Positions 11,190 to 32,881 of a stretch of DNA of 47,085 nt are shown one piece after another. The position numbers were made by a program, and so were the translations under genes. A model generated the notes under the pieces. That model was not told where the DNA came from. It did not search any database and was given only the letters and a program-made list of their open reading frames with translations. The DNA is from Jiangella ureilytica. GTDB lineage: Bacteria > Actinomycetota > Actinomycetes > Jiangellales > Jiangellaceae. Numbering within the stretch: the stretch's first letter is position 1; each line of letters begins with the position of its first letter. The stretch covers positions 1 through 47,085 of the forward strand of contig NZ_SMKL01000045.1 of assembly GCF_004348545.1 (NCBI RefSeq). The letters run 5' to 3'.

Positions 11190-11193
<4 letters not shown>

Positions 11194-12263
11194 CGGCCTA
11201 CCCTCCGGCGGCGTAGCAGGACGGCGAACGCGGGAGCGCCGAGGAAGGCGGTGACGACGCCCACCGGCAGCTCGCGCGGGTCGAACAGGGTGCGGGCCAG
11301 CGTGTCGGCCCAGATCATGAAGCTCGCGCCGGCCAGCGCCGACAGCGGCAGCACGCGGCGGTGCCCCGAGCCGACGACGAACCGGACGGCGTGCGGGAGC
11401 ATGAGCCCGACGAAGCCGATGGCGCCGCTGACGGCGACGGCGGCACCCGTGAGCAGCGCGACCAGCGTCAGCAGCACCCATCGGGTCCGGTTGACCTCGA
11501 TGCCCAGGGACAGCGCCGTGCTGTCGCCGAACGCGAACGCGTCGAGCGTCCGGCTCCGCGACACCAGCACCGCCCCGACGGCGGCGACGGCGACCCAGAC
11601 GATGGCCGCGTCGGCCCAGGAGGCCCCGCCGAGCGACCCCAGCAGCCAGCTGAGGATCTCGCGGTAGGAGTCGCCCGTCGCGGACCAGAAGATGATGAAC
11701 GACGTCGCGGCGGAACACAGGTACGACACCGCGAGCCCGGCCAGCACCGTCCGCGTCGGCGCCAGCTCGCCGCGCCGGTTGGCCAGCGCCAACGTCACCA
11801 GCAGGGCGAGCAGCGCGCCGGCGAACGCGGCCACTGGCAGCCCCAGCCGGCCGACCCCGAGGATGAGTACGGCCACCGCGCCCACCGACGCGCCGGACGA
11901 CAGCCCCAGCAGGTACGGGTCGGCGAGCGGGTTGCGGGTCAGGGTCTGCATGACGGCGCCGCAGATCGCCAGCGCGGCGCCGACGGCGGCCGCCGTCAGC
12001 ACCCGCGGCAGCCGCAACTCCCACACGATGCCGTCGCGCAGCTGCGACAGCGACGACGAGGACAGCCCGAGGTGGTCGCCGATGGAGCGCCAGACGTCGA
12101 GCGGGTGCAGGTCGGCCGAGCCGATGGTGACGGCCAGCGTGATCGACGCCGCGAGCACCGCCGCCATCGCCACGATCCAGGCCGTCGTGCGCACCCCGTG
12201 CCGGACCGGAGGCGCCGAAGCGCCGCCCGGCGCGGTCGCGGGAGCTGCCGCCGTCGTCGTCAC
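11190..12263 (-). CDS. ABC importer permease (FecCD family)
   Basis: A 357-residue integral membrane protein with about nine to ten hydrophobic helices and FecCD-family landmarks: LRLPRVLTAAAVGAALAICG near residue 83, NPLADPYLLGLSSGAS near 110, and GLMLPHAVRFVVG near 286. It forms the channel of a type II importer with the ATPase downstream and the binding lipoprotein upstream. It overlaps both neighbours by four bases, so the three genes are one tightly coupled operon. Confidence 0.93.
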
Positions 12264-13294
12264 AGTCCCAGCTCCTCCAGCTGCGCGGCGAGGTCGACGA
12301 CGGCCTGCGCGTTGCGGACGCCGGCCTCGGCGGCCGGGAACGGCAGCGTCAGGTACCGCTCCTCGGCGACGGCGGGCAGCGCGGCGGTCGCGGGGTTGTT
12401 CGTCAGCCGCTCGATCTTGCTGTCGGCGGTGTTCCAGGCGGCGTCGACGAGGATGATCACGTCGGGGTTCCGGTCGATGATCTGCTCCCAGCTGACGTTC
12501 GACCAGCTCGCCTCGACGTCGGCGAAGACGTTCTCGACGCCGAGCTCGCGCATCATCATGGCCGGCGCGCCGATGTCGCCACCGACGAACGGCGCGTCCT
12601 CACCCGAGGAGTACCAGAGCGCCGTCAGGCCCTCGCCGGGCGCGTCGACCTGGTCGAGCAGCGCCTGCTGCTCGGCGACCAGCGTGTCGGCGGCCTCGGT
12701 GGCGCCGAAGAACGAGGCGACCTCGTGGATCTCGGCGAACAGCTCGTCGAAGGTCATCGGGTTGGGCTGGTAGGCCGGTTCCTGGCAGGCCGCCGGCGAC
12801 ACGTACGTGGTGATGCCGAAGTCGGCCAGCGACGGCCGCTCGCCGGCGGTGTCGGCGCCGAAGTTGCTCTCCCAGCCGCCGTAGACGAAGTCGGGCTCGA
12901 CGTCGAGGAGGGCCTCCTGGCCGGGGACGTTGTCGGACAGCACGGGGACGCCGTCGAGGTCGGACGCATACTCGTCCGGCACCGGGCCGTCGGCGAACGC
13001 CGTGCCGACCAGCCGGTCGGCCAGGCCGAGGGCGAGCATCATCTCCGTCGACGTCGACTTGATGGTGACGACGCGCTCCGGCGGGCTGTCGACGGTGACC
13101 TCGAAACCGCAGTTGTCGACGGTGACCGGCTCGAACTCGCCGGATCCGGCCGTCGACGTCGACGCCGCCTCGGTCGCGTCGTCGCCGGATCCGTCATCGG
13201 AACCGCAGCCGGCCAGGATGAGCGCGCCGGCCGCGGCGGCCATCAGGGCAGCGCGCAACGGTGGGGTGGGTGATAGCGCCACAGTGGTCTCCAC
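12260..13294 (-). CDS. Substrate-binding lipoprotein of putative F420-0 ABC transporter
   Basis: About 344 residues from GTG 13294, with lipobox LAGC (Cys about 30) followed by an acidic Ser/Thr linker. The mature part is a class III periplasmic-binding fold. The stretches VVTIKSTSTEMMLALGLADRLVG, split by DGPVPDEY and followed later by NTADSKIERLTNNPATAALP, match the family proposed to bind the deazaflavin precursor F420-0. That proposal comes from genomic association with F420 enzymes, not assays I know of, so a siderophore or cobamide remains possible. The start is uncertain: an ATG at 13369 in the same frame is possible, but the signal peptide fits the GTG better. Confidence 0.82.
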   Translation of the reverse strand: METTVALSPTPPLRAALMAAAAGALILAGCGSDDGSGDDATEAASTSTAGSGEFEPVTVDNCGFEVTVDSPPERVVTIKSTSTEMMLALGLADRLVGTAFADGPVPDEYASDLDGVPVLSDNVPGQEALLDVEPDFVYGGWESNFGADTAGERPSLADFGITTYVSPAACQEPAYQPNPMTFDELFAEIHEVASFFGATEAADTLVAEQQALLDQVDAPGEGLTALWYSSGEDAPFVGGDIGAPAMMMRELGVENVFADVEASWSNVSWEQIIDRNPDVIILVDAAWNTADSKIERLTNNPATAALPAVAEERYLTLPFPAAEAGVRNAQAVVDLAAQLEELGL

Positions 13295-13450
13295 ATGCGA
13301 AGGCAGGGTTCGTGGGAGACGGTGCAAGGCGACCGCCGAACCAGCTGCCCACTGACCGGGCAGACGCATCAGAGCACAAGCGGTGCTCCGGGGCTCCTGC
13401 CATCTTAAGCAGCCGGACGCGCGGAAATCATCCCTCCGGGCTCACTTTTA

Positions 13451-28979: not shown

Positions 28980-30740
28980 TCAGCGGGCGTCGGCCGGCGC
29001 CGACGACCCGTGCCAGGACTCCCAGAGCGCGGCGTAGGCGCCGCCTTCGGCGACGAGGTCGTCATGCGACCCGAGCTCGGCGATGCGGCCCCCCTCGACA
29101 ACGGCCACCCGGTCGGCGTCGTGGGCGGTGTGGAGGCGGTGGGCGATCGCCACGACCGTCCGGCCCGACAGCACCGCCGACAGCGACCGCTCGAGGTGCC
29201 GGGCCGCCCGCGGATCGAGCAGCGAGGTCGCCTCGTCGAGGACCAGCGTGTGCGGGTCGGCCAGCACGATGCGGGCCAGCGCGATCTGCTGGGCGAACGC
29301 CGGCCCGACCTGATGCCCGCCCGAACCGACCACGGTGTCGAGCCCGTCGGGCAGCGCCTCGACCAGCTCCGACGCGTCGACGGCGGCCAGCGCTCGCAGC
29401 AGCTCCTCGTCGGTCGCCGACGGCGCCGCCAGCGCGAGGTTGTCGCGCAGCGTGCCCACGAACACGTGGTGCTCCTGAGTGACCAGCACGACCTCGCGGC
29501 GCAGCCGATCGACGTCGAGGTCGACCAGCGGCACGCCGCCGACGTCGACGCGGCCCATCCGCGGCGGGTGGATGCCGGCCAGCAGCCGCCCGAGCGTCGA
29601 CTTGCCCGCGCCCGACGGCCCGACCATGGCCAGCCGCTCGCCGTGCGCGAGGTCCAGCGAGACCCCGTGCAGGACGTCCTGGCCCTCGACGTAGGCGTAG
29701 CGCACGTCCTCTGCCGCGATGTCCTCGCCGGACGGCACCGCACCGGACGGCGTCCGGTCCGGCGGCACGTTGGCGATGCCGACGACCCGCGCGAACGACG
29801 TCAGCCCCACCTGCAGCTCGTCGAGCCACGAGACCAGCCGGTCGACGGGGTCGACGATCTGGACCATGTAGAGGACGACGGCGGTGACCTGCCCGGCGGT
29901 GGCGTGGCCGGCCGACGCCAGCCAGGCGCCCCAGGCCAGCGTGGCCACGACCGGCAGCACGTACGCCAACTCGGCCGTCGGGAACCAGACGCTGCGCAGG
30001 AACAGCGTCCGCTTCTCGGCCGCGAACGCCTCGCGCAGGTCGTCGTCGGAGCGCGTGACCCGCATGTCGCCCAGGCCCAGCGCCTCGATGGTGCGCGCGC
30101 CGTCGACGGTCTCGGTGATCGTGCCGTTGATGGTCGCGTACGACGCCCGCTCCCACAGGTACCCCGCCCGCGCCCGCTTGAGGTACCAGCGGGTGCCGGC
30201 GATGAGCAGCGGCGCGCCGACGATGGCGCCCAGCGCGACCAGCGGCCCGGCCAGCACGGCCGCGGTCAGCGTGAGCACCGTGGTGACCAGCGCGACCAGG
30301 ATCTCCGGCACCGCGAACCGCACGGTCCGCGACAGCGCGTCGATGTCGCCGGTGGTGCGTGCGACGAGGTCGCCGGTGCCGGCCCGCTCGACGGTGGACA
30401 GCGGCAGGCCGAGCACGCGGGTGATGAACGTCTCGCGCAGCTCGGCGAACACCCGCTCGCCGAGCACCAGCGACCGCCGGATGGCCACGCGCGTCAGCAG
30501 CGCCTGGACGACGATGCAGCCGGCCAGGACCGCCGCCAGCACGTCCACCCGCGCGGCGGAGCCGGACCCGGTGACCACGTCGACCATCTGACCCAGCAGG
30601 AACGGACCGGCCAGCCCCGCGCCGGCCGCCAGGACGTGGACGACCAGCGCGACGGTCAGCGTGGTGCGGTGCCGCCGGAACAGCCGGCCGGCCTCGCGGC
30701 GGACCTCGGCCGGGGTCGCCACGGGGAGCGCCGTGCTCAT
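28980..30740 (-). CDS. ABC exporter half-transporter B (catalytic Walker motifs, no signature)
   Basis: 586 residues: six membrane helices (about 25-320) followed by a nucleotide-binding domain. Walker A GPSGAGKST (374-382), Q-loop VTQEHH (420-425), Walker B TLVLDEATS (498-506) and H-loop AIAHRL are intact. The LSGGQ signature is replaced by VGPAFAQQ (478-485). Its partner upstream has the opposite losses. Together they form a heterodimeric exporter with one working ATP site, probably moving lipids, drugs or peptides outward. ATG 30740 overlaps the partner's stop, so the subunits are translationally coupled. Confidence 0.93.
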   Translation of the reverse strand: MSTALPVATPAEVRREAGRLFRRHRTTLTVALVVHVLAAGAGLAGPFLLGQMVDVVTGSGSAARVDVLAAVLAGCIVVQALLTRVAIRRSLVLGERVFAELRETFITRVLGLPLSTVERAGTGDLVARTTGDIDALSRTVRFAVPEILVALVTTVLTLTAAVLAGPLVALGAIVGAPLLIAGTRWYLKRARAGYLWERASYATINGTITETVDGARTIEALGLGDMRVTRSDDDLREAFAAEKRTLFLRSVWFPTAELAYVLPVVATLAWGAWLASAGHATAGQVTAVVLYMVQIVDPVDRLVSWLDELQVGLTSFARVVGIANVPPDRTPSGAVPSGEDIAAEDVRYAYVEGQDVLHGVSLDLAHGERLAMVGPSGAGKSTLGRLLAGIHPPRMGRVDVGGVPLVDLDVDRLRREVVLVTQEHHVFVGTLRDNLALAAPSATDEELLRALAAVDASELVEALPDGLDTVVGSGGHQVGPAFAQQIALARIVLADPHTLVLDEATSLLDPRAARHLERSLSAVLSGRTVVAIAHRLHTAHDADRVAVVEGGRIAELGSHDDLVAEGGAYAALWESWHGSSAPADAR

Positions 30741-32470
30741 TCGGGGTCCTCCTCTCGGGTCACGGTGCGTCGGTAGGCGGGGGTGGTGCTCATGAGCTCG
30801 TCGTGGCTGCCGGTGGCGACCAGGCGGCCGTCGTCGAACCAGGCGACGGTGTCGGCCTTGGCCAGCAGGAGCGGGCTGGCCGTGACGACGACGGTGGTGC
30901 GCCCGGCCCGGGCGTCGCGCAGCCGGCCGGCGATGGCCGCCTCGGTGTGCGCGTCGACGGCGCTGGTCGGCTCGACGAGCACCAGCACCTCGGGCTCGCG
31001 GACCAGCACCCGGGCCAGCGCGACCCGCTGGCGCTGCCCGCCGGACAGCGACCGGCCGCGCTCCTCGACCATGGAGTCGAGGCCGTCGCGCAGGGTCTCG
31101 AGCACGTCGCCGGCCGACGCGGTCTCCATGGCCCTGATCAGCTGGGTGTCGTCGTGCCGGCCGTACGGGTCGAGCCCGCTGCGCAGCGACCCGGTGAACA
31201 GCGTGGGCTCGGGGTCGCTGACGACGACGCGGCGGCGCACCTCGGCGACCGGCAGCCGGTCGAGCGGCACGTCGCCGAGCCGTACGCCGTTGCCGGGCAC
31301 CAGGCGGCCCAGCCGGTCGGCGACCGCGGCGGTGAACGCCGGCTCGTCGGAGACCAGCATGGTCAGCGACCCGGGCCGCACCCGCAGCCCGGTGGCGTCG
31401 TCGACCAGCACCTCGTCGGCCGACGACGGCGGCAGCTCACCCGCCGCCGTGGTGGCGCCGGGAGCGACCTCGTCGCGGACCTCGCGCTCGATGGCCAGCA
31501 CCGCCAGCACACGGCGGGCGGCGACCATGGCGCGGGTGGCCACGAACGCCATCTCGCCGGCCGTGCGGACCGGCATGAGCAGGAAGAACGCGTAGCCGTA
31601 GAGCGCCACCAGCGCGCCGGGGTCGATGTCGCCGCTGAGCACCGACCGCGCGCCGACCCAGGTCAGCAGCACCAGGAACACGCCCGGCAGCAGCACCAGG
31701 ACGGCGTCGAGCAGCGCCTGGGTGCCGGCCAGCCGGACGCCCGCCGCCCGCACGGTCTCGGAGCGCTCGGCGTAGCGGCTGACGAAGACCTTCTCGCCGC
31801 CGATGCCGCGCAGCACGCGCAGGCCGGCCACGGTGTCGGCACCGAGCGCCGTCAGGTCACCCAGGGCCTCGCGCTGGCGGCGCTGGCGTTCCTGCAGCGG
31901 CCGGATGAGCGGGCCCATCGCGACCACCAGCAGCGGCACGCCGATGAGCACCATGAGCCCGAGCGGCACCGACGTGTCGAGCACGATGACCGACACGAGC
32001 GCGTAGGACACGATGGCGCCGGCGAAGCGGGGCGAGACCTCCATGGCGTGCCCGATGTGCATGGAGTCGCTGGAGACCGTGGCCACGACCTCGCCGGTGG
32101 ACATGGTCTTCGGGACGGCGGGACCGGTGCGCGCGGCGTGCCGGGAGACCAGCTGGATGACCCGGAACGCCGAGTAGAGCCAGTTGGCCACCGACGCCCG
32201 GTGCCGCATGACGCCGGCGAGCGCCTGGACGAGCCCGAGACCGGCCACGAGCACCGCCCAGCGGGCCGTGCTGCCGGAGTCGTCGTCGATGATGCCGTCG
32301 ATGCCGTGACCGATGGCCCACGGCATGAGCGCCTGCGAGACCATCCACACGACGCCGAAGAACGCCCCGACGACGAGCGTGCGCCACTGCGCCCGCGCCA
32401 GCCAGCCCAGGAACCTCAGGCGGGAGCGAGTGTCGGGAACGCCGGGGTCGGCGTAGGGGAGAGCGCGCAC
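30737..32470 (-). CDS. ABC exporter half-transporter A (signature only, dead Walker sites)
   Basis: 577 residues: a six-helix membrane domain and a nucleotide-binding domain. LSGGQRQ (475-481) is perfect. Walker A is replaced by MLVSDEPAFTAA (371-382, no Lys). The Walker B Asp is Val499 in VLVLVEPTS. The Q-loop Gln is missing (VVSDPEP) and the H-loop His is missing (VVVTASPLLL). It cannot bind ATP in the normal way but completes the active site of half-transporter B. GTG 32470 is chosen because upstream codons run into repeat DNA; TACTGT lies 8 bp upstream as a possible -10 box. Confidence 0.92.
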   Translation of the reverse strand: MRALPYADPGVPDTRSRLRFLGWLARAQWRTLVVGAFFGVVWMVSQALMPWAIGHGIDGIIDDDSGSTARWAVLVAGLGLVQALAGVMRHRASVANWLYSAFRVIQLVSRHAARTGPAVPKTMSTGEVVATVSSDSMHIGHAMEVSPRFAGAIVSYALVSVIVLDTSVPLGLMVLIGVPLLVVAMGPLIRPLQERQRRQREALGDLTALGADTVAGLRVLRGIGGEKVFVSRYAERSETVRAAGVRLAGTQALLDAVLVLLPGVFLVLLTWVGARSVLSGDIDPGALVALYGYAFFLLMPVRTAGEMAFVATRAMVAARRVLAVLAIEREVRDEVAPGATTAAGELPPSSADEVLVDDATGLRVRPGSLTMLVSDEPAFTAAVADRLGRLVPGNGVRLGDVPLDRLPVAEVRRRVVVSDPEPTLFTGSLRSGLDPYGRHDDTQLIRAMETASAGDVLETLRDGLDSMVEERGRSLSGGQRQRVALARVLVREPEVLVLVEPTSAVDAHTEAAIAGRLRDARAGRTTVVVTASPLLLAKADTVAWFDDGRLVATGSHDELMSTTPAYRRTVTREEDPE

Positions 32471-32546: not shown

Positions 32547-32881
32547 GAATGACCACGTTCACCACCCGATCCCGTCCCACAGCAGGCCTGCGGGCTTCGT
32601 GATGCACAGGTGATCCTCGTGACGTGCGACGGCGACCGCCCGGCCCCGGGCCGGGCGCACGGTGGAGAGACGCCGCGGCGGTAGAGAGACGCCGCGGCGG
32701 TGGAGAGACGCCGCGGCGGAGGGGCGCCGCCGCGGCGGAGGTGTGTCGCCGTGGCGGAGGGGCGCCGCCGCGGCGGAGGGGCGCCGCTGCGGCGCCGCGC
32801 CTGCATCACCAGGATCCTCCGCCCGTCACGAGGTCCGCAGGCCTCGTGGAGCAGGGAATCGGGTGGTGAACGTGGTCATTC
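32547..32881. repeat. Inverted-repeat element, copy 2 (complete, 335 bp)
   Basis: The terminal 24 bp at 32547-32570 and 32858-32881 are perfect inverted repeats (GAATGACCACGTTCACCACC and four more bases). Imperfect pairing continues inward for about 75 bp on each side. The right part matches copy 1 at 53 of 56 positions. The centre holds seven 19-bp tandem units, absent from copy 1. No transposase is encoded. It occupies the gap between the exporter operon and guaA, and looks like a non-autonomous (MITE-like) element. Confidence 0.85.
32661..32793. repeat. Seven 19-bp tandem repeats
   Basis: Seven units of exactly 19 bp run without gaps, starting GGTGGAGAGACGCCGCGGC (units 1-3, near identical). 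Units 4-7 diverge to the form GGAGGGGCGCCGCCGCGGC. As 19 is not a multiple of three, Arg/Gly-rich reading frames across it are not genes. Purine-rich and CpG-rich halves alternate. Copy number could vary between strains. Confidence 0.92.

Follow-up and report, generated by a model that had tools for sequence, protein, structure and literature searches.

A paired family of ABC half-transporters in Actinomycetota with reciprocal losses of ATP-binding motifs

The stretch of DNA analysed here, 47,085 nucleotides of contig NZ_SMKL01000045.1 from Jiangella ureilytica (hereafter the window), encodes two adjacent half-transporters of the ATP-binding cassette (ABC) type, which we call A and B and whose losses of ATP-binding motifs are complementary. 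Both genes lie on the minus strand, and their reading frames share an ATGA overlap at positions 30737-30740. A GTG at 32470 is the most likely start of A, in agreement with the end coordinate given in an initial annotation of the window. In each protein, an ABC_membrane domain (PF00664; 99.4 bits in A, 111 bits in B) is followed by an ABC_tran domain (PF00005; 39.1 and 79.4 bits), all scoring above cut-off, and this arrangement is that of a half-transporter of the type IV ABC exporters. No NCBIfam model exceeded its curated cut-off among the best 25 of 167 matches for A and the best 25 of 177 for B.

Reciprocal motifs in A and B

The initial annotation had claimed that A keeps the signature LSGGQRQ and is without the Walker A Lys, Walker B Asp, Q-loop Gln and H-loop His, and that B keeps Walker A, Q-loop, Walker B and H-loop but carries VGPAFAQQ in place of the signature. 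All of these motifs read as claimed (Table 1). A additionally lacks the P-loop glycines and the A-loop aromatic residue, and the D-loop of B is SLLDP, with its Asp present. It was further proposed that, in a dimer, one ATP site would be built entirely from intact motifs and the other entirely from lost ones. The first part stands: the composite site made of Walker A, Q-loop, Walker B and H-loop of B with the signature and D-loop of A is intact in all 86 pairs that we compared (see below). The second part goes too far, because the catalytic Glu and the D-loop Asp are still present in A, and B keeps its D-loop. Overall, the underlying observation is confirmed, and the interpretation drawn from it is supported.

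Table 1. Coordinates of the two genes and of their motifs in the window
Feature	Position	Strand	Remarks
Half-transporter A (dead ATP-binding half)	30737..32470	-	577 aa, start GTG at 32470; PF00664 and PF00005 above cut-off
A, Walker A position VSDEPAFTAA, residues 373-382	31325..31354	-	P-loop replaced; model: strand 369-374, turn 375-376, helix 377-387
A, Q-loop position SDPEPTLF, without Gln	31196..31219	-	sequence
A, signature LSGGQ (LSGGQRQ), intact	31034..31048	-	sequence
A, Walker B and D-loop LVLVEPTSAVDA	30950..30985	-	Asp replaced by Val; catalytic Glu and D-loop Asp retained
A, H-loop position VVTASPL	30869..30889	-	His replaced by Ala, then conserved Ser-Pro
Half-transporter B (ATP-binding half)	28980..30740	-	586 aa, ATG overlapping the stop of A; PF00664 and PF00005 above cut-off
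B, Walker A GPSGAGKST (VGPSGAGKST), intact	29595..29621	-	sequence
B, Q-loop Gln in VTQEHHV	29475..29477	-	sequence
B, signature replaced by VGPAFAQQ	29286..29309	-	PAQAQQ is the commonest family form
B, Walker B with catalytic Glu and D-loop LVLDEATSLLDP, intact	29211..29246	-	sequence
B, H-loop His in AIAHRLH	29139..29141	-	sequence

Structures of the two single chains were predicted with AlphaFold2 on 28-row alignments, with a mean predicted local distance difference test score of 86.2 for A and 85.4 for B. In the model of B, strand 369-373 leads into a P-loop of six residues (374-379), after which a helix begins at the Lys. In the model of A, a two-residue turn connects strand 369-374 to helix 377-387, and because this helix starts two residues after the strand, A is predicted to have no visible phosphate-binding loop. 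The strands of the A-loop hairpin, of 9 and 10 residues in the B model, are reduced to 3 and 3 in that of A.

In a Foldseek comparison with A, the 13 best solved chains all belong to TM287/288, MsRv1273c/72c, TmrAB and EfrCD, headed by TM287. The top 50 also include BmrC and TAP chains and, from rank 14 on, homodimeric exporters. We take the matched TmrAB and EfrCD chains to be degenerate-site halves. With a second aligner, many exporters reach Z scores between 25.6 and 27.7, with ABCB1 at the top, and IrtAB and YbtPQ chains are matched as well. By sequence, the top matches in the Protein Data Bank are ABCB1 for A (216.6 bits) and for the A profile (413.3 bits) and ABCB19 for B (305.4 bits), so no solved structure of this family is evident among the best 60 matches.

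Conservation of the pattern in Actinomycetota

Searching with A in 60 genomes, the window's own included, gave 58 match rows at an expectation value (E) <= 1e-60. After two split matches were joined, these represent 56 genes, found in 35 of the 60 genomes. We retrieved 47 of the genes with their surroundings, the window among them; the other nine stand outside the pair counts. A B gene accompanies A at 47 of 47 loci, each time with the same motif pattern. The A protein of one other genome (G001) is 95% identical to that of the window. The window's own genome contains a second, divergent pair (G000:C90:27655-31118; L071 and L103 in our locus numbering), whose A is 48% identical and has the same losses, and which lies near a gene named by eye as a LacI-type regulator. 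All 11 of the other ABC proteins retrieved from this genome have a P-loop.

A scan of named genomes with a B profile, together with the patterns VGPSGAGK[ST] and PHT[LV][VI]LDEA, gave at least 80 loci, 30 of which belong to the family. These come from Streptomyces, Kribbella, Herbidospora, Actinomadura, Micromonospora, Nocardioides, Actinomyces, Phycicoccus, Prauserella, Glycomyces, Microlunatus, Actinoplanes, Amycolatopsis and Nocardia and from three less exactly named actinobacteria. Among the matches listed, no family pair lies outside Actinomycetota; the other 50 of the at least 80 loci are ordinary exporters, 43 of them from other phyla.

We also applied a profile built from family members to a sample of 296 genomes of the phylum, of which 35 passed E <= 1e-90 and 30 yielded a locus. 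According to the initial annotation, an intact Walker A in close homologues of A would point to local decay or sequencing error. Walker A is in fact absent from A at 27 of the 30 loci. Two others (L134 and L135), to which both profiles, that of A and that of B, give almost the same score, have an ordinary Walker A and are not members of the A clade; L136 lies outside our table, and five genomes above the threshold are likewise outside this count. Five plasmid pairs (L245-L249), which do not contribute to the 86, have no Walker A Lys and an SGGQ in 5/5 A proteins.

The motif counts refer to 86 A/B pairs of Actinomycetota, 71 of them below 85% identity. They remain from 88 pairs after the removal of L144 (broken A frames) and of L239, whose contig ends inside B. 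L144, from Streptomyces sp. GKU 895, has broken reading frames for both A and B in a draft genome, and L164, from Nocardia brasiliensis, has a family B with no recognised A in the retrieved stretch. At two further loci, L152 and L184, the family pair directly follows a second half-transporter pair, making four exporter genes in a row; one half of the second pair has an intact P-loop and the signature ISAGQRQ.

In A, the Walker A Lys, the third P-loop Gly and the H-loop His are each found in 0/86 pairs, as is the A-loop aromatic residue, whose column is empty in 86/86. The Q-loop Gln occurs in 1/86, and both SGGQ and the D-loop Asp in 86/86. In B, GxxGxGK, the Q-loop Gln, Walker B Asp, catalytic Glu, His and A-loop Tyr are present in 86/86 each; of the signature, the Ser remains in 16/86, the first Gly in 8/86 and the second in 1/86. 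Residues of the working composite site are thus retained in both halves, and most of those of the other site have gone. When all listed residues are required together, 76/86 pairs are complementary; the exceptions are L076 and nine pairs with one signature Gly in B, three of which also have a Gly at the first P-loop position of A.

In 52 ordinary exporters taken as controls, the Lys, Gln, His and Walker B Asp are found in 52/52, the catalytic Glu in 51/52 and the first signature Gly in 49/52. Because the loci of the controls and of 28 named B proteins were found partly via a Walker A pattern, the Walker A of these proteins cannot serve as independent evidence; the remaining 58 pairs and all A sequences are independent of that pattern.

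The residues that take the place of the lost ones are themselves conserved in the 71-pair set. In A, position five of the ten-residue P-loop segment is Pro in 78%, and one or more acidic residues occur within this segment in 69/71; Ser (100%) and Pro (98%) come directly after the H position. In B, the signature is replaced by Pro (66%), Ala (78%), Gln (66%), Ala (87%), Gln (98%) and Gln (94%). These columns are nearly invariant among 12 members of the genus. Replacements as well conserved as these suggest a role in structure and not drift.

A and B are neighbours in 84/86 pairs, with gaps of at most 247 bases in all 75 that were measured, the other nine being judged from reading frames; in the remaining two pairs, A and B flank a gene for a nonribosomal peptide synthetase (NRPS). 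Over 66 comparisons among 12 genus members, the median ratio of nonsynonymous to synonymous substitution rates (dN/dS) is 0.255 for A and 0.199 for B, and 0.225 and 0.155 for their respective nucleotide-binding domains (NBDs); these values, from the Nei-Gojobori method on GC-rich codons, are approximate. A is thus under purifying selection.

In a tree of 67 rows, covering 20 of the 71 non-redundant pairs and made by a quick method that gave long-branch warnings, A and B each form a single clade with support 100. The A and B trees share their first split, into two subclades, while the inner order partly differs. Subclade 1 contains the window pair and its own-genome paralogue. In subclade 2, the Walker B of A differs (often LVLHDPTT), and B is without the D-loop Asp in 15/15 pairs, with AEAGS in 13/15. 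Over all pairs, this Asp is present in 70/86 and absent from 16/86, 15 of the 16 being in the second clade. The second-clade loci at which the B D-loop is lost, mostly with AEAGS for SLLDP, are L083, L084, L162, L163, L178, L233-L237, L240-L244, L248 and L249. From the geometry of NBD dimers, the D-loop of B presumably belongs to the dead site, and loss of its Asp in B but in no A would then fit a single working site.

A probable single working ATP site and its alternatives

We consider it probable that A and B are the obligate partners of a heterodimeric type IV ABC transporter, probably for export, in which a single ATP site works and the opposite interface is a hinge free of nucleotide. In such a dimer, ATP would be held by Walker A, Walker B, Q-loop, H-loop and A-loop of B and clamped by the LSGGQ and D-loop of A. 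The opposite interface, between the collapsed P-loop of A and the Pro-Ala-Gln-Ala-Gln-Gln segment of B, likely takes no nucleotide, to judge from its residues, and would act as a hinge made of protein. One ATP binding event would shut the NBDs around this hinge and flip the membrane domains, and hydrolysis would reopen the NBDs, in what we infer to be a one-stroke cycle. As hinge residues, we propose the acid-Pro turn and the Ser-Pro in A, and PAQAQQ in B. A broader statement is that throughout the actinobacterial family, including the siderophore pairs of the CchGI kind discussed below, the degenerate site is a dedicated nucleotide-free hinge with its own conserved residues, and exactly one ATP is bound per cycle; we give this wider claim about an even chance. 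NBD contact at an empty site appears possible, because in one state the NBDs of MsRv1273c/72c are still dimerised at the empty degenerate site, according to the available part of PMC12038006.

Several points weigh against a single working site and an empty hinge. The deviant site of the yeast transporter Pdr5, in which the Walker A Lys, Walker B Glu, H-loop and signature are substituted, holds ATP in cryo-electron microscopy structures (PMC7756269 and PMC8421411, in excerpt), so loss of motifs alone is no proof of an empty site. In TM287/288 and BmrCD, nucleotide bound at the degenerate site reportedly holds the NBDs together (PMC5216877, in excerpt), and therefore its absence would need compensation, none of which is visible here. 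A retains the catalytic Glu in 72/86 pairs and the Walker B Asp in 21/86, which is odd for a nucleotide-free site. The A protein of L076 has Gln at the Q-loop column, and A proteins of the Streptomyces type have a Gln two residues ahead of the Q-loop position (QDKDPVL). In addition, our models cover the single chains and not the heterodimer, and the second aligner puts the fold of A no closer to degenerate halves than to other exporters.

A first alternative is that the second site is catalytically dead yet holds a structural nucleotide, as Pdr5 does, by means of the catalytic Glu of A and the signature Ser/Thr and Gln of B. Pdr5, TM287/288 and BmrCD all hold nucleotide in degenerate sites, as far as the excerpts of PMC8421411 and PMC5216877 go. 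The frequency of the Glu given above would suit this idea, and in B the signature Ser position is Ser or Thr in 45/86 pairs and the last position Gln or Glu in 53/86. However, the P-loop scaffold is gone: no pair has the third Gly, the Lys or an occupied A-loop column, 69/71 have an acidic residue in the P-loop segment of A, and the model has a two-residue turn there. Pdr5 keeps its P-loop glycines, which we also count against this alternative. We regard it as unlikely.

A second alternative concerns direction and depends on the gene neighbourhood. In the window, guaA (GMP synthase; NF000848, 762 bits) lies divergently beside A, as it does in relatives of seven family codes; in Phycicoccus, it is close to A with small genes between. 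This proximity reflects vertical descent and not the substrate. Between guaA and A there is a 19-bp GC-rich tandem repeat of 7.1 copies (32660-32794), and a scan upstream of A for promoters and terminators found none. Apart from ABC genes, the largest of the neighbour clusters listed covers 6/31 loci. MarR or TetR regulators, recognised partly by eye, are found near a few subclade-1 pairs and speak weakly for efflux.

Siderophore-type genes were sought among the neighbours at E 1e-5, excluding each query's own locus and ignoring generic ABC ATPase matches, in loci of 5.5 to 19 kb for subclade 2 and 9.6 to 20 kb for the others. They occur near 11/15 subclade-2 loci as against 0/32 in subclade 1, the clade of the window. 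L244 and L242 carry A and B proteins that their motifs place in the clade sister to that of the window pair, and the genes there run from a binding protein through B and an NRPS (3632 and 3652 residues) to A. On a Streptomyces plasmid, a subclade-2 pair lies between a monooxygenase of the SidA/IucD/PvdA type and a binding protein, with an NRPS, a formyltransferase and iron-chelate permeases nearby, which we read as a hydroxamate siderophore cluster. The window itself encodes a FecCD permease and a binding protein at 11193-13369, 15.6 kb away, which NCBIfam models, both above cut-off, name a putative F420-0 transporter.

The siderophore neighbours of the second clade, and the structural matches to chains of IrtAB and YbtPQ, would suit an importer with an exporter fold, like IrtAB for iron-loaded siderophores (PMC10246721, in excerpt), at least in that clade. 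However, several second-clade loci have FecCD or binding-protein importer genes of their own, CchGI is presumed to export coelichelin (PMC12161575, in excerpt), and the window clade is without siderophore-type genes in 32/32 loci. Import seems to us improbable.

It is also conceivable that A and B are not partners, B being a homodimer and A a regulator or the partner of another half-transporter. In favour of this, L164 has a B with no recognised A. However, only A-B gives a complete ATP site, because B-B would have two altered signatures and A-A no Walker A, and the two genes are neighbours in nearly all pairs and share the first split of their trees. We therefore find this very unlikely. Chance, local decay, a pseudogene or a sequencing error, a natural first thought given the breadth of the losses in A, is refuted by a pattern conserved in 47/47 retrieved pairs, by key residues that follow it in 86/86 (no Walker A Lys in any A), by the dN/dS of A, by its 95% identical counterpart in G001 and by its conserved place beside guaA.

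A heterodimer with one working site and a hinge would bear on the question of why a second ATP site with little or no hydrolysis persists in so many exporters, the advantage of which was called unclear in a 2020 review (PMC7756269, in excerpt). A conserved family without nucleotide-binding machinery at the second site is a natural and testable case. If A/B pumps with one ATP bound, such a transporter can do without the second nucleotide, and contact between proteins can stand in for it. The family also exposes a problem of naming: in 5/5 of the plasmid records (L245-L249), public annotation gives the name 'ABC transporter ATP-binding protein' to the half that lacks ATP-binding motifs.

Comparison with known systems

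A/B resembles TM287/288, TmrAB, BmrCD and MsRv1273c/72c in its type IV fold and in having one consensus and one degenerate site, here distributed over two gene products that would assemble. According to the initial annotation, known asymmetric exporters usually still bind nucleotide at the degenerate site; as far as the available portions of the papers go, TM287/288 and BmrCD do so tightly (PMC5216877) and MsRv1273c/72c in several states (PMC12038006). In A, by contrast, neither the P-loop, which such sites usually keep, nor the A-loop remains.

With Pdr5 and the fungal PDR transporters, A/B shares the alteration of nearly all motifs of one site, complementary over both NBDs (PMC7756269, in excerpt). 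The same review, in the part available, gives the changes in Pdr5 as Lys to Cys, Glu to Asn, His to Tyr and LNVEQ, and names Pdr5 among the largest deviations; for human proteins, it describes signature changes and Glu-to-Asp as typical, with Lys-to-Arg in ABCG5/G8. The structure, as excerpted, has every motif of the deviant site but the D-loop altered and ATP bound there (PMC8421411). However, Pdr5 is a single chain with the NBD before the transmembrane domain, and A/B is encoded by two genes with the opposite domain order, so the pair does not belong to the PDR type. The Walker B Glu, moreover, is lost in Pdr5 and mostly kept in A.

Pairs of the CchGI kind form the sister clade of the window pair and belong to the same A and B families. 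The gene order at L244 and L242 fits the cch locus of Streptomyces coelicolor, which we know here from publications and whose SCO0492 we take to be the NRPS. In the accessible parts of PMC12161575 and PMC3924187, CchGI is SCO0491 and SCO0493, beside CchCDEF (SCO0497-0494), and is the presumed coelichelin exporter; Drug/Siderophore Exporter-3 is the family name of TCDB 3.A.1.119 (PMC3924187). The window pair differs from these pairs in its clade, in the siderophore genes near it (0/32 as against 11/15 loci) and in the B D-loop Asp, which the sister clade has lost in 15/15 and the window B keeps.

RamAB-type exporters, whose genes lie next to those of class III lanthipeptide synthetases, are likewise paired half-transporters in Streptomyces. 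We rejected the RamAB/AmfAB-type lanthipeptide exporters as a name for the family, as Walker A is intact at 4/4 of their loci, where both halves keep the P-loop, unlike A. Two such loci included in the tree belong to neither the A nor the B clade and branch beside the former, under a long-branch warning, and no LanKC synthetase scored above cut-off in the window's own genome.

In the literature searched, mostly open-access and in part seen as excerpts, we found no paper on this actinobacterial pattern and no description of a type IV exporter whose degenerate half is wholly without a P-loop. The A/B pattern goes further than the degenerate exporters that we found described. We regard it as the far end of an already known type, to which Pdr5 is a parallel in another class of transporter.

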